Below, one piece after another: positions 22,089 to 35,204 of a stretch of DNA of 45,137 nt (the first letter of the stretch is position 1; every line of letters begins with the position of its first letter). Below the pieces are notes generated by a model that made no database searches, was not told the origin of the DNA, and worked only from the letters and a program-made list of their open reading frames with translations. The DNA is taken from the NCBI GenBank assembly GCA_903838125.1, contig CAILXF010000050.1, forward strand, positions 1 through 45,137, written 5' to 3'. The position numbers and the translations under genes were made by a program. This DNA comes from an uncultured Pseudomonadota bacterium. Lineage in GTDB: Bacteria; Pseudomonadota; Gammaproteobacteria; Burkholderiales; Methylophilaceae.

Positions 22089-23033
22089 TTAGGCTGCAAG
22101 TGTTAATGCCTCGTCGAGTGCCTTTTGTTTGATGCTGGCACCCATGCCGAACCACGCTGAGTCCAGACGATTGTCTGAGCTCCTCGCGCGACGCTCGTGG
22201 TCTACGTACTGCGTCACTGCGTTCACTAGCCCCCAAGCAGTCTCACTTGCTGAAGCCATGTTTGCCCCCATACCGTCACCGATATAGAGATTGAATACAT
22301 GATTCAGTACCTTGAGATTGGGCTGCTGGTGGTAGCTAAGTGATGGATCACCTAGAACTTCGACCAAGTAGCGACGTGCTTCGAACGTATGCACTGGCCT
22401 GTCGGCTAAGCTACGTATGTTGCTGATGAAGTTCTGCCAGTGGCCTACGCCAATGCCAAGTTGTTGCTTCACTCGACTTGCGTCGAACTTCGTACTATGT
22501 GGCACCTTAATGGCCCCTGTGCTATCGCCAGTGGCCATTTGCAACGTGTTGTTACACACCACACGCACCGACGTAAACTGTGCGGTAGTAGCTAAGCTTC
22601 CATCGCACGCAGTGGCGAGCAACAAGTAGCCTTTGACTAGGTCGCCGCCACGCAGTACTGTCTCCTCGCCTGTACGGGCTAGCGCCCACAGTTTCTTGCC
22701 ACCTTTAAGTACACCTGCGGTTTCAAGCTCAAATCCGCCTAGATCTACCAGATCTCGGTAGAATTCCAGCACTTCACGTGGCTGGACTTCCTGATAGCGG
22801 TTAGAGACGACTGAGAGTGCGTCGCCTGTATCTGACCTGTACAGTACCTTTGCGTCTGCGTAAACTTGAGCGCTGTTTTGTGTGAGGTAATGCACGGGGC
22901 TGGATTGTATAGCCCAGTCCATCCCTGCTTCACGTAGCCAGATTTCAAGCGGCTGCTTGTCGCTGAGTGGATTACCTAAGCCATGCCACGGCGTCTCGCC
23001 CCTGTATGCCATTGTTTCGATTAAATGTGCCAT
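22089..23033 (-). CDS. DUF932 phage/plasmid-like protein
   Basis: About 314 residues from the ATG at 23033, which has an AGGAG site; the frame open to 23063 is longer by ten residues. The N-terminal AYRGETPWHGLGNPL and the core LLATACDGSLATTAQFTSVRVVCNNTLQMA match the DUF932 (phage/plasmid TIGR03299-type) family, common in plasmids and integrated elements and of unknown biochemical function. It lies upstream of the annealing-protein/exonuclease pair on the same strand, so it probably acts with recombination or replication of the element. Confidence 0.85.
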   Translation of the reverse strand: MAHLIETMAYRGETPWHGLGNPLSDKQPLEIWLREAGMDWAIQSSPVHYLTQNSAQVYADAKVLYRSDTGDALSVVSNRYQEVQPREVLEFYRDLVDLGGFELETAGVLKGGKKLWALARTGEETVLRGGDLVKGYLLLATACDGSLATTAQFTSVRVVCNNTLQMATGDSTGAIKVPHSTKFDASRVKQQLGIGVGHWQNFISNIRSLADRPVHTFEARRYLVEVLGDPSLSYHQQPNLKVLNHVFNLYIGDGMGANMASASETAWGLVNAVTQYVDHERRARSSDNRLDSAWFGMGASIKQKALDEALTLAA

Positions 23034-23130
23034 TTGTATTTCTCCTAGATTTAGATGTGACAAAGCCCCGCTTGCGGTGCAAGACGAGGCTGTTTGTTGT
23101 GTTGCTGTTTATGTAGCTGGGTAGCTAGCG

Positions 23131-24776: not shown

Positions 24777-25448
24777 TCAGTTATGGATAGTCACGTGCCC
24801 CTGTGAATCTTTTTCCCGCACAACCCCACCTCTAGTGCGAGCCCTGTAATCCCTATATGCTTGACGACTATTTAATAGTGCATCATATTCACTCATTCCT
24901 GATTTTTGCAGTTCAGTCCATGTAGCAATCACTGTATCGGTGGCATGTTGGTTATATTGCTGAGATTTTGAATTAAGCTCCGGAAATTCTTGTTCCATTT
25001 CAGTCATTACTACATCTAGCCTAGGGTCTGGTTTTTTTTGAGGCTCTGTTGCAGCAACGGTTGGCACGATATTCTCATTAAGGTTAGGTTCTAATTGAAC
25101 TGGAGGCGCCGTAATAAAGGGGCGAGCATTTTGAGAAATCTGCTGCTGATTATCTGAATTCTTGAAATGGTCAACCGCCCATATAACGCCAATTATGCCT
25201 ACAATAACGATGCCCCATGCGTTTGAACTATTGTCTTTGTAATTCGGCGACTCAACAATAACACTCCCCCATACAAATCCAGCAAATACAGTCACGAACT
25301 GAAGAATCATCAGCCATGACGTAAAAATCATGACTAAAGTCCAAATAGCTGCTGCCGCAGAAGCTAAGACCCAACCATTCTTTCCAAACAATACTGATGC
25401 GAGACCTATGCCTAGGATAATTCCTATTTGCCACGCGAAGACTTCCAT
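24777..25448 (-). CDS. Membrane protein downstream of hsdR, unknown
   Basis: 223 residues. Four hydrophobic segments (about 6-22, 26-41, 43-65, 78-92) are followed by a long hydrophilic region with Gln/Pro-rich linker (about 98-140) and a charged helical C-terminus containing EYDALLNSRQAYRDYRARTRGG. No family is recognised. It is the last gene of the hsdM-hsdS-fic-hsdR run on the same strand, 40 bp after hsdR, so it may be part of the defence cargo. Confidence 0.65.
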   Translation of the reverse strand: MEVFAWQIGIILGIGLASVLFGKNGWVLASAAAAIWTLVMIFTSWLMILQFVTVFAGFVWGSVIVESPNYKDNSSNAWGIVIVGIIGVIWAVDHFKNSDNQQQISQNARPFITAPPVQLEPNLNENIVPTVAATEPQKKPDPRLDVVMTEMEQEFPELNSKSQQYNQHATDTVIATWTELQKSGMSEYDALLNSRQAYRDYRARTRGGVVREKDSQGHVTIHN

Positions 25449-25488: not shown

Positions 25489-28400
25489 TTACCCCCAAGC
25501 CTCACCCAAAGCCTGCGCTTGTTGCAACACTAACTCCACAGCATCATTCTGCTGATCTGGTGGGTACTTGTACTTTCGCAGAATACGTTTAACCAATAAA
25601 CGTAGACTAGCGCGTACGCTTTCTCGAACAGCCCAATCAACACTAATGTTCTTACGTAGACTTTCAACCAGTTCATGCGCTATTTTCTTCAGCGTTTCGT
25701 CGCCTAATTCACGTACAGAATCTTCGTTATTGGCGAGGGCGTCATAGAAAGCTAATTCGTCTGCATTCAGACCAAGGTCAGTGCCTCTATCTGCAGCCTC
25801 TTTAAACTTCTTCGCCATTTCTATCAGCTCTTCCATTACTTGCGCAGTTTCAATCGAGCGGTTCGTGTAGCGCTTCACGACGTTAGCCAGCAGGTCGGAA
25901 AACTTAGTTTGCTGCACGATGTTAGTAGCAAAGCGGGTTTTTATCTCGCCTTCCAGTAGCCGCTCCAGCATTTCTATAGCTAGATTGCGCTCCGGCAAGT
26001 TACGTACTTCATTCAAGAAGTCTTCATCCAATATGCCAATATTCGGCTTCTCTAGGCCAGCAGCATCGAAGATATCGACGACTTCTTCCGACACTACTGC
26101 GGAGCCGATAATTTGACGTATGGCCAACTCGCGCTCTTCGTTAGTTTTCTTTTTGCTGCTCACTTCTTTTTTAGTTAGTAGCACTTTAACAGCCTGAAAG
26201 AATGCCACTTCTTCACGCACGGCCTTGGCCTCATCGAGCGTGCAACACAACGTAAATGCTTTTGACATGGCCAGCGCAGTATCGCCGAAGCGTTTTTTGC
26301 CATCCTTAATACCAAGCACGTAGTTCGCCGTTTTAGCCAACATACTGTGGCCGCTAGTCAGAAATGCGCTGTAATCGAAGCCATGTAGCATTGCGCGAAG
26401 TACGTCGAGCTTTTCTTCCAGTACAGCGTATGCCTCATACGCATCCACCGTAGGGCGACCACGCCCGTTACTGGCGGTGTATTCTTTGAGTGCTAGTTTT
26501 AAATCATTTGCGATACCGATGTAGTCGACTACCAGCCCGCCCTGTTTGTCGCGGAACACACGATTCACCCGTGCAATGGCTTGCATGAGATTGTGGCCCT
26601 TCATCGGCTTGTCCACATACATAGTATGCACGCACGGCGCATCAAAACCAGTGAGCCACATATCACGCACAATCACCAACTTCATCGGGTCTTCGGGGTC
26701 TTTAAAGCGCTTCTCTAGGCGTTTCTTTACTTGCTTAGAATAGATATGCGGACGTAATAAAGCCTTGTCACTGGCAGAGCCAGTCATCACTACTTTAATT
26801 ACGCCTTTTTCGGGGTCTTCGTCATGCCAGTCAGGGCGCAGTGCAATAATCGCGTTATACAGATGCACGCAGACTTCGCGGCTCATAGCGACGATCATCG
26901 CTTTGCCGTTCTGCGCTTTGCTACGTTCTTCAAAGTGGTCAACTAAGTCGGCAGCTACTTGTTGTATACGCGGTGCAGCACCTACGATGCTTTCTAGTGC
27001 AGCCCACTTACTCTTTAGGCGCGCTTGCTGGTCATCTTCTTCGTCTTCGGCCAGTTCGTCGACTTCTGCGTCGATGTCTACTAGCATCTCTTGCCTCAGC
27101 CCCAACTTGGCGAGGCGTGATTCAAAGTAAATGGCCACCGTTGCGCCATCCTCACGCGATTGCTGCATATCGTAAACGTGGATGTAGTCGCCAAACACTG
27201 CACGGGTATCTCGGTCTTCGCTGGAAACTGGTGTGCCGGTAAATGCCACGAAGGTGGCGTTAGGTAATGCATCGCGTAAATGTTGCGCATAACCTACTTG
27301 GTAACCCTTAGCATCACCTTTAAATTTCGCCTCAAATCCGTACTGAGTTCGATGCGCTTCGTCTGCAATCACTACAATATTGCTACGGTCAGACAGGACG
27401 GGGTAAGTGTCTTCGTCTTCACCCGGCATAAATTTTTGTATGGTGGCGAACACGATGCCGCCTGATGGACGATTTGCTAGCTTGGCGCGCAAATCCTGAC
27501 GCGTTAAACCTTGAACTGGTTCTTCGCGCAATAAATCTTGCGAGAGCGAGAATACACCGAATAATTGGCCGTCTAAATCGTTGCGATCAGTAATCACCAC
27601 AATGGTCGGGTTCTCCATAGCAGCATCAGTCATCACGCGTGCAGCAAAGCACGTCATGGTGATGCTTTTACCTGAACCCTGCGTGTGCCAAACTACGCCA
27701 CCTTTATGCGTACCGCCGGGGCGAGATGCAGTGATTACTTGGTTTATGGCTGCACGTACTGCATGAAACTGGTGATAACCAGCAATCTTCTTCACCAACG
27801 TACCGTCATCTTCAAATAACACAAAGAAGCGTATGAAATCCAGCAGGTAGGCGGGCGCCAGCACGCCTCGTATCAGTGTCTCTAACTCGTTAAATTGGCC
27901 TAGGGGATCAAGTACCACACCGTCTATCGTTCGCCACGCCATGAAACGTTCTGCATTGCTAGATAGCGAACCCATCATGGCTTCAGTGCCATCGGTAATG
28001 ACCAGCACTTCGTTGTACTGGAATGCATCTGGGATTTGCTCTTTGTAGGTTTCTATCTGGTCAAATGCTTTCCAAATATCGGCGTTAATATCGGCGGGGT
28101 TCTTAAGTTCTAGCAGCACCAATGGTAAGCCGTTTACAAATAAGATAATGTCAGGGCGACGAGTATATTTCGGCCCTTTAATAGAATACTGGTTGATAGC
28201 CAGCCATTCATTAGCGGCCACATCAACAAAGTCAATCAGGCGCACAAAGTCACCTCTAGTTTCACCATCTTTCTGATACTGGACTTTTACCCCCGTAATT
28301 AGCAGTCGATGAAACTGGCGATTAGCCGCTAATAGCACTGGTGTTTCTAGGTTCAGCACTTGTTGTAATGCATCCTCACGCGCCACTAGCGGAACTTGTG

Positions 28401-28569
28401 GGTTTAGACGGGCAATGGCGCTACGTAAGCGTTCGACCAACACCACCTGTGTGTAATTACTACGCTCTGGTGCATTGCCATCCACAGCAATCTCTGGACC
28501 GTAAACGTGGCTGTAACCGACATCTGCCAGCCAACTTAGGGTTTCTTGTTCCAGTTGATCTTCAGTCAT
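25489..28569 (-). CDS. hsdR: Type I restriction enzyme R subunit (HsdR)
   Basis: 1026 residues. ATP-dependent translocase and nuclease of the type I enzyme. The N-terminal PD-(D/E)XK nuclease has D140 and E154-x-K156 (RRPDIILF... LLELKNP). Helicase motifs follow: Walker A TQGSGKS near 296-302, DEAH box at 403-406 (IADEAHRTQYG), motif III VAFTGTP, motif VI QAIARVNRVFRDK. The C-terminal helical region binds the methylase core. All key residues are present, so the enzyme looks active. It starts 4 bases after fic, in the same transcript. Confidence 0.95.
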   Translation of the reverse strand: MTEDQLEQETLSWLADVGYSHVYGPEIAVDGNAPERSNYTQVVLVERLRSAIARLNPQVPLVAREDALQQVLNLETPVLLAANRQFHRLLITGVKVQYQKDGETRGDFVRLIDFVDVAANEWLAINQYSIKGPKYTRRPDIILFVNGLPLVLLELKNPADINADIWKAFDQIETYKEQIPDAFQYNEVLVITDGTEAMMGSLSSNAERFMAWRTIDGVVLDPLGQFNELETLIRGVLAPAYLLDFIRFFVLFEDDGTLVKKIAGYHQFHAVRAAINQVITASRPGGTHKGGVVWHTQGSGKSITMTCFAARVMTDAAMENPTIVVITDRNDLDGQLFGVFSLSQDLLREEPVQGLTRQDLRAKLANRPSGGIVFATIQKFMPGEDEDTYPVLSDRSNIVVIADEAHRTQYGFEAKFKGDAKGYQVGYAQHLRDALPNATFVAFTGTPVSSEDRDTRAVFGDYIHVYDMQQSREDGATVAIYFESRLAKLGLRQEMLVDIDAEVDELAEDEEDDQQARLKSKWAALESIVGAAPRIQQVAADLVDHFEERSKAQNGKAMIVAMSREVCVHLYNAIIALRPDWHDEDPEKGVIKVVMTGSASDKALLRPHIYSKQVKKRLEKRFKDPEDPMKLVIVRDMWLTGFDAPCVHTMYVDKPMKGHNLMQAIARVNRVFRDKQGGLVVDYIGIANDLKLALKEYTASNGRGRPTVDAYEAYAVLEEKLDVLRAMLHGFDYSAFLTSGHSMLAKTANYVLGIKDGKKRFGDTALAMSKAFTLCCTLDEAKAVREEVAFFQAVKVLLTKKEVSSKKKTNEERELAIRQIIGSAVVSEEVVDIFDAAGLEKPNIGILDEDFLNEVRNLPERNLAIEMLERLLEGEIKTRFATNIVQQTKFSDLLANVVKRYTNRSIETAQVMEELIEMAKKFKEAADRGTDLGLNADELAFYDALANNEDSVRELGDETLKKIAHELVESLRKNISVDWAVRESVRASLRLLVKRILRKYKYPPDQQNDAVELVLQQAQALGEAWG

Positions 28570-28573
28570 GACT

Positions 28574-29647
28574 TTACCCCGTATTACCCATTAGAATGTC
28601 ATTCAGCGCAATGTTCACATAATAGTTACCACGCCCCATTTTTTGTTTTTGCACAAAGCCACCCTCGGCTAATGCATCCAAATACTTGGTTGCGGTAATG
28701 CGCGAAACCTGTAAATCACGCTGTACAAAATCAATTTTTGTATAGGGGTGTGTAAATAGATTGTTGATTAAGTCTTGGCTATAAAACTTATATTCAGCAC
28801 GAATGCGGTGCTTGTAATCCAGCAGCGCTGTTTTAATCGCTTGAATAGTCGCAATGGTCTGCACTGCTGTTTGCTCTACGGCTTCTAGCATATACAGCAC
28901 CCACTCCTCCCAACTATCCTCTACTCGCACGGTTTGCAGTAAGTGGTAATAATCTGTTTTGGTGCGTACAATGTGACTACTTAGGTATAGCACAGGAATA
29001 TCCAACAAGCTTTCTTTCACCAAATACAGCACATTCAAAATACGGCCTGTACGGCCATTGCCATCATAAAACGGATGTATGCTTTCAAACTGATGATGAA
29101 TGAGCGCCATCTTAATTAATGGGTCTATGTCAGATAGTCCGGCATCATTGATAAAGCGCTCTAAATCGCGCATTAGCGCCACAATTTCTGCGGGATCTTG
29201 CGGTGGTGTATACACGATGTTGCCACCACCATCTTTCAACGAAGTCCCCGGCAGTTTTCGGAAGCCTGCATTGTTGCGTTCTAGTTCGGCCTGTATTTCG
29301 ATGATATGGTTAGCGGTAATTAGCCCGCTTTGTTTAACTTGCTCAAAGCCTATACGTAGTGCTTGGCGATAGCGCAGCACTTCTTTAGCAGCGGGGTTGG
29401 CAAAGGCTTCTGGTAGTACATCATCTTTAAACAGCTCATCATGCGTGGTGATGATGTTTTCAATTTCAGAGCTGTCTTTCGCTTCTTGCAAGCCCAGCGT
29501 ATTGATTAAAATACCCTGATTAGGAATTGACCCTGCAATACCTTTTAGCTCTGCCAAGCGGCGGCTGCTGATGGCGAGTTTTTTTAATATCGCAGGCGTT
29601 TCAAAACGCGCTGCGTCTAATTGCTCAAGTGGCTTGATTGAATGCAT
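28574..29647 (-). CDS. Fic-family protein with C-terminal winged helix
   Basis: 357 residues from the ATG at 29647 (GGGGA site); an in-frame ATG at 29665 adds six residues but lies 4 bases from an operator box. Numbering below uses the longer form. The N-terminal inhibitory motif (S/T)xxxE(G/N) is present as SSEIEN (65-70), so it is an autoinhibited class II type. The active site HPFYDGNGRTGR (197-208) is complete, which supports AMP transfer. The C-terminal 290-345 region (KIDFVQRDLQVSRITATKYLDALAEGGFVQKQKMGRG) has the layout of a winged helix. The gene lies between hsdS and hsdR, co-transcribed with hsdR; target and role in restriction are unknown. Confidence 0.9.
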   Translation of the reverse strand: MHSIKPLEQLDAARFETPAILKKLAISSRRLAELKGIAGSIPNQGILINTLGLQEAKDSSEIENIITTHDELFKDDVLPEAFANPAAKEVLRYRQALRIGFEQVKQSGLITANHIIEIQAELERNNAGFRKLPGTSLKDGGGNIVYTPPQDPAEIVALMRDLERFINDAGLSDIDPLIKMALIHHQFESIHPFYDGNGRTGRILNVLYLVKESLLDIPVLYLSSHIVRTKTDYYHLLQTVRVEDSWEEWVLYMLEAVEQTAVQTIATIQAIKTALLDYKHRIRAEYKFYSQDLINNLFTHPYTKIDFVQRDLQVSRITATKYLDALAEGGFVQKQKMGRGNYYVNIALNDILMGNTG

Positions 29648-29669
29648 TACGCGCTTCCCCAACATAACA

Positions 29670-29776
29670 TGTATAGAAACTGTTAATTTTTATACATACT
29701 AACTCAAACGTGTATAGAAAATGCATTTTTTTATACATGTGCAGATTGATGTGTATAGAAAACTGGCTTTTATACC
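29670..29776 (-). promoter_or_regulatory. Three palindromic operator-like boxes before fic-hsdR
   Basis: Three copies of TGTATAGAAA-N7-TTTTTATACA-type imperfect palindromes at 29670-29696, 29711-29737 and 29752-29776. Their starts are exactly 41 bp apart (29670, 29711, 29752), close to four DNA turns. They fill the intergenic gap between hsdS and fic. The palindromic form and equal phasing suggest cooperative binding by a dimeric regulator; the Fic winged helix or the element's AlpA-like protein are the candidates. Confidence 0.7.
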
Positions 29777-29813
29777 ACTATCAATGCCACGAATGCCGAT
29801 TTAGCGCATTGCA

Positions 29814-31136
29814 TCATACTGTGGCTTCTTTAAGTATCGTTGCAGCTTCTGGCAGGCGCAATTGACCGGAGATTAAGCGAGGGAGTAACGTGTCGCGGAG
29901 GGTGGCGAGCGTTTGTGCTTGCTTTAAATTATCAGAGAATCGTTGGCGAAGAGGCAAGCTTACATTATCAAATTTCTTCAGAACTTGTTCTGATGGCACG
30001 GCTATTTTAATGCTTGCTAGTTTACTTCTACTCAATTCGGTTTGACCTGTTGTTCCCTCACCAAAGCTTTCAATTTCCCCCTGCTTATGCATTAGAACAA
30101 GGCCGAGATAATTCCAGCTAAGGTTTGATGATGCACGAACAACGGTGACGTGTGAATCGACAATTGTTGTTTCATCTAACGAAAGTACCTGCGCAATGCG
30201 CCCAAGGGTTCCTACACCTGTTGAATTTACAAGTACATCACCGATTTTCAGTTCTCTGCCATCAATTTTCTTTTGCATATTATCGTGCCGGCGTGCCTTG
30301 GTAACGTCAAGAGTAAAGTCGCGTATGCACTTTTGATTTATAACCAACACGCCACGTGATTCAGTGTACTTGGGTGATATGCCTCGATTCAAATAACTTG
30401 TATTTTCACCAATCGTTGTAACCTTCCACCCCGTTGGCACCAACCCCAGCTCTAATTCCTCAAAGCTGTCAGGAAAGAGTGCGGCGGTAGCTTCGTCCAT
30501 GCCTTCAGGTGCACGGCCTTGTTGTTTGGCATGAACAGGGTCGAAATCTACAAACCACGATTTGAATATCGCCTTCGCAATGGCTTCGAGCGTGGCGTTG
30601 GTTTCGCGTAGCAGGTTAATGCGGTCGTCTAGAGAGTTCAGTATGTCGCCAGCATCTATTTGATAGTTTAGTGACGGAACAAACACCTCGAAATTTTCAA
30701 TTTGACTTTTGCTAATATGAGGGATTGATGTGCCTGTGTGAATAGACTGAACGTATTCGGTAAACTGCGTATTGCAGATTACGTACCGCATAAATTTTTG
30801 ATTCATTGCAGGCTTTGCACGAATTCTGGCTACGCGTTGAGCAAGAAGGCATATGCCATCAACCTTGGAAACAGAGGCGAAGTTTTTCCCGACTTTGGAG
30901 CCATCCATTCCGACAACAATATCACCTTCCCGCAGCAAAAATGGCTCGAGATTCTTCGTAACGATTGGCCAGCACTTTTCTTTTTCAGCCCATCTTAAGG
31001 AATGCTCTGTAACATTATCTCCTCGAACAACACGAATGCCAGCACCTTTAGGAAGGTATTCTGCTCCTCTAAACGCGAATCCTGTAAATATGTCGGCCAC
31101 TTCGCCTAAGCGCACTTTCCCCAACTCAGAACTCAT
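29814..31136 (-). CDS. hsdS: Type I restriction enzyme specificity subunit (HsdS)
   Basis: 440 residues. DNA recognition subunit with two target recognition domains (about 1-150 and 225-390). Between them is the central helical spacer [39 protein letters not shown], the diagnostic conserved region; the C-terminal helix carries [21 protein letters not shown]. It overlaps the hsdM 3' end by 11 bases (ATG inside ...TATGAGTTCTGA). The target sequence cannot be read from it. Confidence 0.94.
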
Positions 31137-32700
31137 ACCCTAGTCCTCCCAGCTTCTGACGTATTAACTGGTCTAGTTCTGCGCCTTTCGCCATCTGCTC
31201 ACCGAGCTTTTCAGTCAGCATCTGCATCTTGTCGGCGAAGGCTTCATCATCATCTTCCACTTCTTCCGCGCCAACGTAGCGGCCGGGGGTAAGCACATGA
31301 CCATGTTCGGCAATTTCAGCCAGCTTTACGCTTCGGCAGTAGCCAGCGGTGTCTTGGTATTCACCTGCATCAGCCTCACCACGCCATGCGGCAACCGTGG
31401 CGGCAATTCTGGCAATCACTTCATCGGTCAATTCTGTCTGCACGCGGCTAATCATGGTGCCGAGCTTACGTGCATCAATAAACAGCACTTCGCCTTGTCT
31501 CACACGTTTTTCTTTAACTAAAAACCACAAGCAAGCGGGAATCTGCGTGTTAAAGAACAACTGGCCGGGTAGCGCAATCATCACTTCTACTTTGTCAGCC
31601 TCGACCATCGCACGACGAATTTCACCTTCTGAGTTTTGGCTGGATGACATAGAGCCGTTAGCCAACACAATACCAGCACGGCCTGTCGGTTTAAGGTGGT
31701 GCAGCATATGTTGAAGCCATGCGTAGTTGGCATTACCAGTCGGTGGTGTACCATAAACCCAGCGTGGGTCGCCTTCTAAACTACCATGCCACCAATCAGA
31801 GATATTAAACGGTGGATTTGCCAGCACAAAATCAGCACGTAAATCTATGTGTTGGTCACGCACAAAGGTATCGGCAGGCTCTTTACCTAAATTGAAGTCA
31901 ATGCCACGAATCGCAAGGTTCATCGCTGCTAAGCGCCATGTAGTGGGGTTAGCTTCTTGGCCGTAAATCGAAACATCGCCTATCTTGCCGCCATGCGCTT
32001 CGATAAACTTTTCAGATTGCACAAACATACCACCAGAGCCACAGCAGGGGTCATACACTTGACCATGATGCGGAGCTAGCACTGCAACTAGGGTTTTAAC
32101 GATAGAAGCTGGCGTGTAGAACTGACCACCGCGCTTACCTTCTGCACTGGCGAACTGACCTAGAAAGTATTCATATACTTGGCCGAGTAAATCACGTGCG
32201 TGATTCTTCGCACGGTCTTCTGCCTTGCCAGACTCACCAAAGCCAATTTGAGAAACCAAATCAACTAGCTCGCCCAGCTTGCCATCAGGCAGCTGCACCC
32301 GAGCATAGCGTTTATCGAGGATGCCTTTAAGCTTAGGATTCTCAGTTTCAATCAGCGACAGCGCATCATCAATACGCTTACCGATGTCGGCCTGCTTAGC
32401 CTGCGCGCGCAAACTTTCCCAGCGCGCGGCTTCCGGCACCCAAAACACGTTGACTTCTTTGTAGTAGTCGCGGTCTTCAAGCTCTTCATTAATGAGCGCT
32501 TGGTCAGCATCAGGTAGGTAGTAGCCATCATTAACATCTGCAAACTTATATATCAGCTCTGATCTGCGAGTCTGGAAAGTATCGGAGATGTATTTAACAA
32601 AAATAAGGCCAAGCACGATGTGCTTGTATTCGGCAGCATCCATGTTGGCACGTAATTTATCAGCGGTTGCCCAGAGGGTCTTTTTGATGTCTTCTATCAT
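31126..32700 (-). CDS. hsdM: Type I restriction enzyme methyltransferase subunit (HsdM)
   Basis: 524 residues. N6-adenine methyltransferase. Contains the N-terminal helical HsdM domain (about 1-150), the SAM-binding motif [10 protein letters not shown] (217-226), and the catalytic NPPF at 295-298 ([13 protein letters not shown]). First gene of the minus-strand R-M operon; it starts about 165 bp from the oppositely oriented terminase gene, so the gap must carry both promoters. Confidence 0.95.
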
Positions 32701-32866: not shown

Positions 32867-33334
32867 ATGAACACACTCGATATTAAATTAACCCCTAGAC
32901 AGAAGGCTTTTGTGACCGAATTTGTCGTTTGTCGCAATGGCGCTGAGGCGGCTCGTCGCGCGAAGTACGCCGTACCAAGCGCTAGGATTACGGCATCTAA
33001 GCTACTATCAAAAAGTAACATTCAGGCCGAAATCTCAGCGATGGAAGCCAAGATGTCCGAGAAGCTTGATATAGACCGTAACACTGTTATCGGAGGCGTG
33101 TTTAGCGGCATAGCACAAGCACGCGAATCTAACGATGCTGGCGGCATTCTAAGAGGCTGGCTTGCCATAGGCAAGATAACTGGCTTAGACAAGCCTGAAG
33201 CGACTACAGACCTCGTACTGAGCGCTTCGAACTCAGCCTTAGAAGCTAGGTTCGAAGCGATGTCAGATGCAGAACTTTTAGCTATTGCTGAAGGGTCTGG
33301 TGGCACTTGCCTAGAAGCGTGCCTTATAACGTAG
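32867..33334 (+). CDS. Terminase small subunit-like protein
   Basis: 155 residues. The N-terminal LTPRQKAFVTEFVVCRNGAEAARRAKYAVPSARITASKLLSKSNIQAEI follows the Terminase_2 small-subunit pattern: DNA-binding helices, conserved Ala-Arg turn, then an I...I helix. The C-terminal part (GWLAIGKITGLDKPE) is also typical. An AAGG site precedes the ATG. There is no large subunit or portal gene. A lone terS is a marker of satellites that redirect the helper phage's packaging. It is the only strong plus-strand gene inside the element. Confidence 0.82.
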   Translation: MNTLDIKLTPRQKAFVTEFVVCRNGAEAARRAKYAVPSARITASKLLSKSNIQAEISAMEAKMSEKLDIDRNTVIGGVFSGIAQARESNDAGGILRGWLAIGKITGLDKPEATTDLVLSASNSALEARFEAMSDAELLAIAEGSGGTCLEACLIT

Positions 33335-33704: not shown

Positions 33705-35204
33705 TTATGATTTTAAATGTAGCGTCTCTTTTGTTGCATGGTGTAAGCCCCACAGCTTTCTAACTTCAAGGGTTGGTTGTTTTATTACAACTTCACCCTT
33801 AGCAATTAGCTCATCAAGCGCACGCTCGATCGAACGCTTCGGCGCTTTCATAGTACTGTCTTTACCCGTGTACGCATCTATAAATCCACGCTTAGAGTAC
33901 TTGCCCGTGTGCTGAGAAATTGTATTAACGATGCGTTTTTGCAGCAGTTCGCTGCCTGCTAGTGGCGCAACTGGTATAGTCAAACTAACATGCTCTAATA
34001 CGCCTACTGAATGTGACTCGACAGTAATACGCTTTAACCAGAAGTGATTGCCAGTAGGGCCATAGTTGTTCTTAACTACAGATAGCGACGCATAGTTTTT
34101 TCTCATATCAGGGTTAATACCAAATGTCTTGCCTTCAGCATCGTCCATCGTGCGTAGAACGAAAACAGCTCGTGCAAGATCAACCCAAGCGGCCGAGCCT
34201 GCTACATCGTTCGAGTCTGCCTTTTCTTTACCTATGGCAGTTTTTGGTGAGTGCGCTAAAACCATTACCGCTGCTTCGCTTGTCTGTGCAATAAGGTTAA
34301 CTTGCCGCATCGTCTGCACAACGTCTTCACGGCTATTAAACTCACCGCCGTGTATTAAGCCAGCATGGTCTAAAATTACTAAACGAACCGGAACTTCAGC
34401 CTCAACGGCCAATGCTTTAGCTGCAGCAATCACTTCAGCAGTAAACTCGGTAGCCTCTAGCGAGCCAACTTGTTTTTTGGTTAACCTCGAGTCTAAGCCG
34501 TTCATTGGGAAAGCGCGTATCCTCATTTTAACGAGTGCAATCTGCTCATTACTCAGATTCATTACTTTTACAATCGCGTTAAAACGGCGTGCAATCTCTT
34601 CAGCATCCTCTTCACCAAGTATCAGCATTACAGCACCTTCTAAAGTAGCCTTACCCATGTATTGCAGTCCTAATGCCACGCATACAGCTAGCTGCATCGA
34701 CAGCATAGTTTTTGAAACCCCGCCTAAACCAGCTAAGACACATACCTTTACTGCAACGATCAAGTCTGTCAGAGCATAAACACGTGGACTTGGGTCTATG
34801 GGCGAAAATTCAATTAAACCGTCTGCGGAATCAAGCCTTGGTGAGGCTGCGCTGTATCCGATTGCATTTGCATTACTACCAGCTGCGTAACTCATAATAC
34901 TTGCAGCAATTTGTTTGACCTCTATATCGAGCAAAGGTGGGCTGACATGCGTTGCATTGGTTGCCATAAGCGTCGCCTCGATAGCCTCCGCTCCAAGTCC
35001 CAACCTACGCATGGATCCAGCTATGCGGGTTAGCTCGTTGTTTCGATTTTTCTCTATTATCAGGTCGCCACCAGCAAGTGACGCGACTGCATGGGACTTC
35101 GCATTTAATTGGTAGGTTGTAATAGGCGGCCATGTAATACCTAGCTTATTGAACAGGTCGTTGGTACTGTATTGTTCAGCAGTATCTGCTAAAATAACGT
35201 TCAT
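33705..35204 (-). CDS. RepA-like replicative helicase with PriCT domain
   Basis: 499 residues. A PriCT (primase C-terminal) segment (about 58-106, RIAGSMRRLGLGAEAIEATLM...PPL) precedes a RecA-fold AAA_25/RepA-like ATPase. The Walker A region is AGLGGVSKT at 158-166, with Ser in place of the second Gly of GKT. Walker B is RLVILDHAG around 274-282. The segment VMVLAHSPKTA is followed by DSNDVAGSAAWVDLARAVFVLR, typical of the family. A C-terminal winged helix (about 430-485) may bind the iterons that start right after the stop. With the primase gene upstream it looks like a split Pri-Rep unit. Confidence 0.82.
   Translation of the reverse strand: MNVILADTAEQYSTNDLFNKLGITWPPITTYQLNAKSHAVASLAGGDLIIEKNRNNELTRIAGSMRRLGLGAEAIEATLMATNATHVSPPLLDIEVKQIAASIMSYAAGSNANAIGYSAASPRLDSADGLIEFSPIDPSPRVYALTDLIVAVKVCVLAGLGGVSKTMLSMQLAVCVALGLQYMGKATLEGAVMLILGEEDAEEIARRFNAIVKVMNLSNEQIALVKMRIRAFPMNGLDSRLTKKQVGSLEATEFTAEVIAAAKALAVEAEVPVRLVILDHAGLIHGGEFNSREDVVQTMRQVNLIAQTSEAAVMVLAHSPKTAIGKEKADSNDVAGSAAWVDLARAVFVLRTMDDAEGKTFGINPDMRKNYASLSVVKNNYGPTGNHFWLKRITVESHSVGVLEHVSLTIPVAPLAGSELLQKRIVNTISQHTGKYSKRGFIDAYTGKDSTMKAPKRSIERALDELIAKGEVVIKQPTLEVRKLWGLHHATKETLHLKS

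Follow-up and report, generated by a model that had tools for sequence, protein, structure and literature searches.

A phased palindromic array as the predicted operator of a SoFic-type fic gene in a type I restriction-modification locus of an uncultured Methylophilaceae bacterium

Organization of the locus

The window is the whole stretch of DNA that was analysed, 45,137 nucleotides from an uncultured member of the Methylophilaceae. It holds a type I restriction-modification locus with hsdM (31126..32700), hsdS (29814..31136) and hsdR (25489..28569), identified from open reading frames and domain searches, and a gene for a SoFic-type adenylyltransferase, fic (28574..29665), assigned by domain, model and relative searches. 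The order is hsdM, hsdS, fic, hsdR and all four genes are read leftward, on the minus strand, as are all features described below. A 148-bp gap separates hsdS, which ends upstream of it, from fic, and it is in this gap that the palindromic boxes lie. Only 4 bp separate the fic stop codon from the start of hsdR, so that hsdR is probably carried on the fic transcript and shares the fic promoter. Genes for a terminase small subunit (32867-33334), a PriCT-type primase/AAA protein (33705-35204) and a DUF932 protein (22089-23063) flank the restriction genes; such phage- and primase-type neighbours suggest an integrated mobile element. Behind hsdR, a 223-aa open reading frame (24777-25448) matches nothing in Pfam, NCBIfam or PADLOC at E 0.001.

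The Fic protein

Counted from its first ATG, Fic has 363 aa. Translation more likely begins at the second ATG (29647): GGGGA precedes it, and many relatives align from residue 7. The protein carries the Pfam domains PF13784 (Fic_N), PF02661 (Fic) and PF21248 (SoFic-like C-terminal), and no other Pfam domain at E 0.001. It matches the PADLOC SoFic defence model PDLC03963 at 2.6e-115 over residues 15-358, and the NCBIfam SoFic model NF046030 at 361 bits, under the cut-off of 550. By reading of the translation, the sequence HPFYDGNGRTGR at residues 197-208 (29042..29077), which we take to be the catalytic Fic motif, is intact, and SSEIEN at residues 65-70 (29456..29473) is presumably the N-terminal inhibitory motif of a class II Fic protein.

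The C-terminal winged-helix domain (residues 286-354; 28604..28810) is assigned from the PF21248 match (2.3e-18) and a structure model. The model, built from 47 sequences, has helices there at 311-318 and 322-334 and strands at 338-343 and 346-351; the helix at 322-334 (28664..28702) is taken as the recognition helix from the structure model and from the covariation scan given below. The first structure model had a mean pLDDT of 47 and the second reached 61 overall, with a good C-terminal domain in which block means are 75-93 over residues 301-350 and the elements follow the winged-helix order; no claim made here draws on the catalytic part. When the model was used in a structure search, the best whole-chain matches were Shewanella SoFic structures. 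Far weaker matches, at E 0.03-0.3, included the winged-helix repressors CzrA, SqrR, MftR, PerR and TubR, mixed with unrelated folds. The original prediction had read a winged-helix-like domain at the C-terminus of Fic, and the Pfam match and the predicted model agree on it.

The box array in the window

The sequence TGTATAGAAA occurs at 29670, 29711 and 29752, with left arms exactly 41 bp apart. The first two boxes are full 27-bp palindromes with 0 mismatches to TGTATARAAA-N7-TTTYTATACA, of which 0.01 would be expected by chance in the window according to shuffles. The proximal candidate operator box (29670..29696) adjoins fic and the second (29711..29737) lies 41 bp further upstream; both were identified from the sequence, the pattern and a family weight matrix, and they are the only two boxes in the window above 8 bits. 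The third box (29752..29778), found by reading of the sequence, is degenerate and falls below 8 bits: its left arm is intact, and its right arm, TTTTATACC, lies 2 bp closer, ends in C and has one mismatch. The exact 41-bp phase is therefore limited to the left arms, and of the three boxes exactly 41 bp apart first described between hsdS and fic, the phase of the left arms and two full palindromes stand and the regularity of the third does not.

Single arms occur in the window about as often as chance predicts (5 matches with at most 1 mismatch, against 3.8 expected); the unusual features of the array are the pairing of the arms and the period. When the full pattern was scanned with at most 3 mismatches against the bacterium's own genome (1.61 Mb of sequence, 86% complete), boxes 1 and 2 were recovered together with one other site with 3 mismatches. 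The pattern scan of the window found no full-box match upstream of hsdM.

Conservation beside related fic genes

Upstream regions were compared for the best 80 of 442 relatives from a scan of genome contigs, with Fic proteins 75-90% identical to that of the window. With the weight matrix, a box above 8 bits is present in 75 of the 81 upstream regions (80 relatives and the window) and 61 of 70 box spacings equal 41 bp; the best score over 221,814 positions of downstream coding sequence is 3.6 bits. The original prediction had staked itself on the conservation of the boxes beside fic genes elsewhere, and this is what the 75 regions document. Since the matrix was trained on those same upstream regions, matrix-free tests were added. 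In these, 114 of 140 regions, a set that includes rows with Fic identity below 40%, exceed the 99% quantile of 840 mononucleotide shuffles, and 26 have no significant array (L119 and L125 among them). Of 34 spacings compared, 41 bp comes out best, in 40 regions sampled from the 81 close ones as well as in 49 far regions; among the far regions, a box width of 27 is equalled or slightly exceeded in score by widths of 26, 28, 30 and 32. No other box above 10 bits was found in 775,624 bases of the 80 loci, scanned on one strand. Scanned independently of fic, 369 genomes yielded a box (at most 1 mismatch) in three, two of them at fic (the window and G110).

Some upstream regions are identical to one another (L133 and L068; L135 and L102; the two E. 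coli loci described below). Locus L048, with a frame broken at the start of the match, was left out of the protein tests and of the gene-context count. In a locus of the same genus, L005, fic is 89% identical to that of the window and contains internal stop codons; boxes are still present upstream of it.

Gene context of the boxes

An HsdR relative lies directly behind fic in 30 of the 79 loci analysed. Among the 57 loci with flanks of at least 3 kb on both sides, hsdR is found directly behind fic in 24 and further on in one; in the other 32, a search at E 1e-3 gave no relative of the hsd proteins encoded in the window. With the canonical matrix, all 30 loci in which hsdR directly follows fic have boxes, and so do 42 of the 48 loci without hsd relatives; 16 of these 48 have short flanks. 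The boxes are thus kept where hsd relatives were not found, so they go with fic and not with restriction. By reading, the next gene behind fic varies among the 32 loci without hsd relatives.

Of 12 plasmid loci, three have fic among type I genes (two from Azotobacter, one from Croceicoccus) and one, from Acetobacter, has it beside a DNA methyltransferase; the other eight have no annotated restriction genes. The two Azotobacter plasmids (L223, L224) carry two Fic genes in one type I locus, in the order methyltransferase, fic, S, second fic, R, and in L224 a gene for a PD-(D/E)XK nuclease is placed between the second fic and R. Two loci, L115 and L121, have no boxes; by reading, the end of an hsdM-like gene overlaps fic in both, so that fic probably lacks a promoter of its own there, and residue 323 of the helix is K or N in these proteins, not I, L, M or Q.

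Covariation of box letters with the recognition helix

A distance-corrected column scan of 132 loci, leaving out the rows with Fic identity below 40%, ranked residue 323 first (r 0.27) and residue 326 second (0.23) of 274 variable columns. The scan corrects both sides for distance in residues 1-280 and counts every TGNNNN hexamer with two or more occurrences in 200 bp, whether or not it belongs to a box arm. None of 500 row permutations, which do not keep the tree, reached the value of residue 323. Residues 343, 337 and 342 of the winged-helix domain rank fourth, fifth and seventh, and columns 271 and 90, outside the domain, rank third and sixth. By plain, uncorrected mutual information residue 323 is only sixth and the helix is not singled out; columns of the catalytic domain stand higher, because the box classes are noisy and divergent lineages dominate.

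The association by class was tabulated for 146 rows, which include plasmid loci and duplicates and are not corrected for relatedness, with both strands counted. Where residue 323 is I, L or V and residue 326 is T, at least two copies of TGTATA occur in 200 bp in 80 of 93 rows (9 of 53 outside the class). M323 goes with TGCTCA (8 of 13 rows; 1 of 133 others), Q323 with TGTTAA (7 of 11; 2 of 135), P323 with TGTAAA (2 of 5; 3 of 141), and Q after K, N or G with TGTCGA (3 of 7; 3 of 139). Where I, L or V323 occurs without T326, TGTTCA is found in 5 of 11 rows (3 of 135 others) and TGTATA in 6 of those 11. Helices of the form KRQ(T/A)AS go with TGTCGA in L011, L013 and L154. The exceptions are M323 with TGTATA boxes in L102, and L012 and L153, which have a KRQ- or GRQ-type helix and no TGTCGA. 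In a tree-based test of independent pairs, four well-supported pairs differ in the helix, and the box changes in the same direction in 1.4 and in the opposite direction in 0.0 on average, too few events to reach significance; in the raw table of that test (112 rows) helix and box are both canonical in 70, neither in 26, box only in 9 and helix only in 7.

Thirteen further loci were read after the rule had been seen, 12 from the 25 plasmid rows listed and one from the 15 phage-labelled rows listed. With at least one class hexamer in 200 bp asked for, 11 of 13 fit (5.6 expected, p 0.004 by permutation) when TGCATA is counted for I/L, a letter change allowed after the Azotobacter loci had been seen; with TGTATA only, 10 of 13 fit (4.8 expected, p 0.005). 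When two copies are asked for, 8 of 13 fit with TGCATA allowed (p 0.002) and 5 of 13 with TGTATA only (p 0.02). The plasmid locus L226 has no recognisable box.

The same rule was applied to six loci of the SoFic clade, obtained with L013 as query (2 of 10 and 4 of 25 rows listed): two from E. coli, with identical upstream regions, and one each from Methylosinus, whose helix had been missed by the search pattern, Cedecea, Mesorhizobium and Agrobacterium. The predicted TGTCGA was found in 6 of 6, in 4-6 copies each with both strands counted. The five distinct SoFic-clade loci, like L011, L013 and L154, have boxes of 27 bp and 17 bp, and the distances between their left arms are mostly 40 and 30 bp. 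In E. coli and the other SoFic-clade loci the two box lengths thus differ by about one helical turn, and the boxes of the window are equal at 27 bp. The analysis predicts that the TGTCGA array is the operator of the E. coli sofic gene. Conservation and covariation together make Fic itself the likely binder of the boxes; the earlier proposal of Fic as their DNA-binding regulator is strengthened in both respects, with physical binding as the presumed cause.

Promoter geometry and proposed autorepression

A -10-like hexamer, TAGTAT (29696..29701, position read from the window sequence), overlaps the proximal box by its last base. When 64 of the 81 upstream regions are aligned, TAnnAT proves conserved in this position, its last base coinciding with the first of the proximal box (T 83%, A 80%, A 83%, T 100%). 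At the same place before the upstream box the values are 34, 19, 47 and 72%, so that there is no TAnnAT there. The fic transcription start would accordingly be expected near 29689, with the second box covering the -35 region; one box over -35 and one over the start suggest the layout of a repressor.

We consider it probable, from the sequence comparisons, that the boxes are an operator array by which a SoFic-type Fic protein represses its own promoter, with hsdR carried along. Each box would be bound by a Fic dimer, whose C-terminal winged-helix domains would place their recognition helices on the inverted arms. Neighbouring boxes are about four helical turns apart, and therefore dimers on them would share one face of the DNA. 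By occupying both the box in the -35 region and the proximal one, which begins on the final base of the -10 hexamer, Fic would close its own promoter, and a potentially self-toxic AMP-transferase would be kept scarce until the operators are vacated. With hsdR only 4 bp behind fic, the restriction subunit R would come under the same loop, separately from hsdM-hsdS.

A design of this kind is known from CccR of Yersinia pseudotuberculosis, which represses itself through palindromes in its own promoter (PMC9755527). CccR has, like the Fic protein of the window, a Fic domain with a C-terminal HTH and a class II inhibitory helix; it differs in that it has no phased array but a single inverted repeat (10 bp - N26 - 10 bp), is a T6SS effector, and is 29% identical to SoFic at 45% coverage (PMC9755527). 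Restriction genes are not mentioned with CccR in the available part of that paper.

Alternative explanations

The boxes could mainly be a docking site at which DNA binding alters AMP-transfer, with transcription control secondary. This is compatible with autorepression and, as the main role, unlikely. Binding to DNA raised AMPylation by CbFic2 over 22-fold (PMC10628234), and the toxicity of EcSofic requires its C-terminal domain (PMC12249575). CbFic2 was, however, assayed on random DNA (PMC10628234), and the boxes of the present family lie at the fic promoter and nowhere else above 10 bits on the scanned strand of the 80 loci, as is expected of an operator.

An extension of the autorepression model makes SoFic a one-piece sensor, repressor and toxin, which would stay on its operator arrays in healthy cells until infection frees them and turns on fic and, in the window, hsdR together; we regard it as unlikely. 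In this reading, a few helix residues would set the letters of the operator across the family, and the operators of many SoFic genes could be deduced from the protein. The release might be triggered by host DNA damage or by phage copies of the array that titrate the repressor. Boxes were found in eight records of viral contigs, none of which has a fic match over the whole record, and the records may be fragments. IMG/VR pieces, including L162, L163, L176, L185, L189 and L193, carry arrays with the same letters and the 41-bp phase, and neither a fic gene nor a SoFic C-terminal domain was found in the available array-bearing pieces. This leaves room for viral arrays as decoys or triggers. The viral box junction is N14 in 31 records, N13 in 16 and N15 in 5; grouped by similarity around the site, the 31 N14 records form 10 groups, two of which hold 18 and 4 records, and the N14 excess is therefore not a clean test. 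In L162, by reading, the array lies just before a thyX-like gene.

Type II C proteins are small stand-alone HTH activator-repressors that delay R, encoded just before the R gene and acting through palindromic boxes. If Fic worked in this way, it would activate fic and hsdR at low level and repress them at high level, so that restriction would be delayed. Several unequal boxes around one promoter, as in C-boxes, and the position of hsdR directly behind fic agree with this, and no convincing -35 hexamer was seen in the 64 aligned regions, which could mean dependence on an activator. Against it, boxes over the -35 and start regions fit the exclusion of polymerase, the boxes are kept where hsd relatives were not found, and CccR, the nearest characterised relative in design, is a plain autorepressor (PMC9755527). 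Autorepression would give an early burst in a naive host, which speaks against a restriction delay unless Fic also activates. We hold this mode of action to be quite unlikely. A C-protein-like delay as the main role was rejected on the box conservation outside hsd loci and on the geometry. The original claim that Fic controls R expression with such a delay is thereby divided: R is probably under the fic promoter, and the delay is unsupported. Under autorepression by Fic, the regulation of R is more plausibly a side effect of the position of hsdR behind a self-regulated defence gene.

Binding of the boxes by an unlinked host regulator, with Fic only a target gene, is very unlikely. It would account for the box-like arrays in phage contigs in which fic was not found and for the bacterial genome G258, which has a single box and no fic in the 3 kb examined. 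It is at odds with the tracking of box letters by the recognition-helix residues of Fic, and the gene behind fic differs among the 32 loci without hsd relatives. Chance AT-rich palindromes, whose arms alone are not rare in the window, have a negligible probability given the 0.01 full boxes expected there and the conservation of spacing and letters over many genomes.

Relation to known systems

RptR is likewise an autorepressor with three operator copies at a promoter serving type I restriction genes (PMC12255303). It is a 9-kDa protein of another fold that uses TAGCTA at the head of its island (PMC12255303), whereas the regulator proposed here is a Fic enzyme encoded inside the island before hsdR. 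By reading of the window sequence, TAGCTA is absent from 29660-29780. The Fic protein of the window also differs from C proteins, being a 363-aa Fic protein with a winged helix that most probably acts as a repressor only. CbFic2 of Coxiella burnetii is a Fic protein with a C-terminal winged helix, like that of the window, and binds DNA; random DNA was used and no operator was defined in the available part of the report (PMC10628234). That paper, of 2023, stated that DNA binding by SoFic had not been demonstrated to date (PMC10628234).

SoFic is a one-gene phage-defence toxin, and the predicted operators, including that of E. coli, make its control testable in a laboratory strain. The 2025 EcSofic paper called the restraint of SoFic and its activation by infection elusive (PMC12249575). 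In that system the antitoxin AS1 is encoded behind the gene and control was ascribed to the C-terminal domain, not to DNA binding (PMC12249575). Only 4 bp lie behind the fic gene of the window, which therefore has no AS1 gene there. None of the terms palindrom, transcription, wHTH and upstream occurs in the main text of PMC12249575. Through the fic-hsdR arrangement, hsdR of a type I system could come under transcriptional control, a subject on which a 2025 restriction review, in its available part, found surprisingly little information. SoFic has 0 occurrences in the accessible text of a 2026 AMPylation review. No report of a SoFic operator or of control of hsdR by Fic was found by title and start of abstract in a literature mostly outside subscription journals, bioRxiv preprints excluded.

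SoFic and EcSofic (PDB 3eqx, PMC12249575) have the same domain make-up as the Fic protein of the window, and newer PDB entries exist for SoFic (9tb0, 9tc4, 9tch, 9tcl) and a relative (9vjc). The E. coli sofic gene resembles fic of the window in having an upstream array, but one of TGTCGA arms. A partial DNA match to the E. coli sofic gene is present in 233 of 5426 E. coli genomes.
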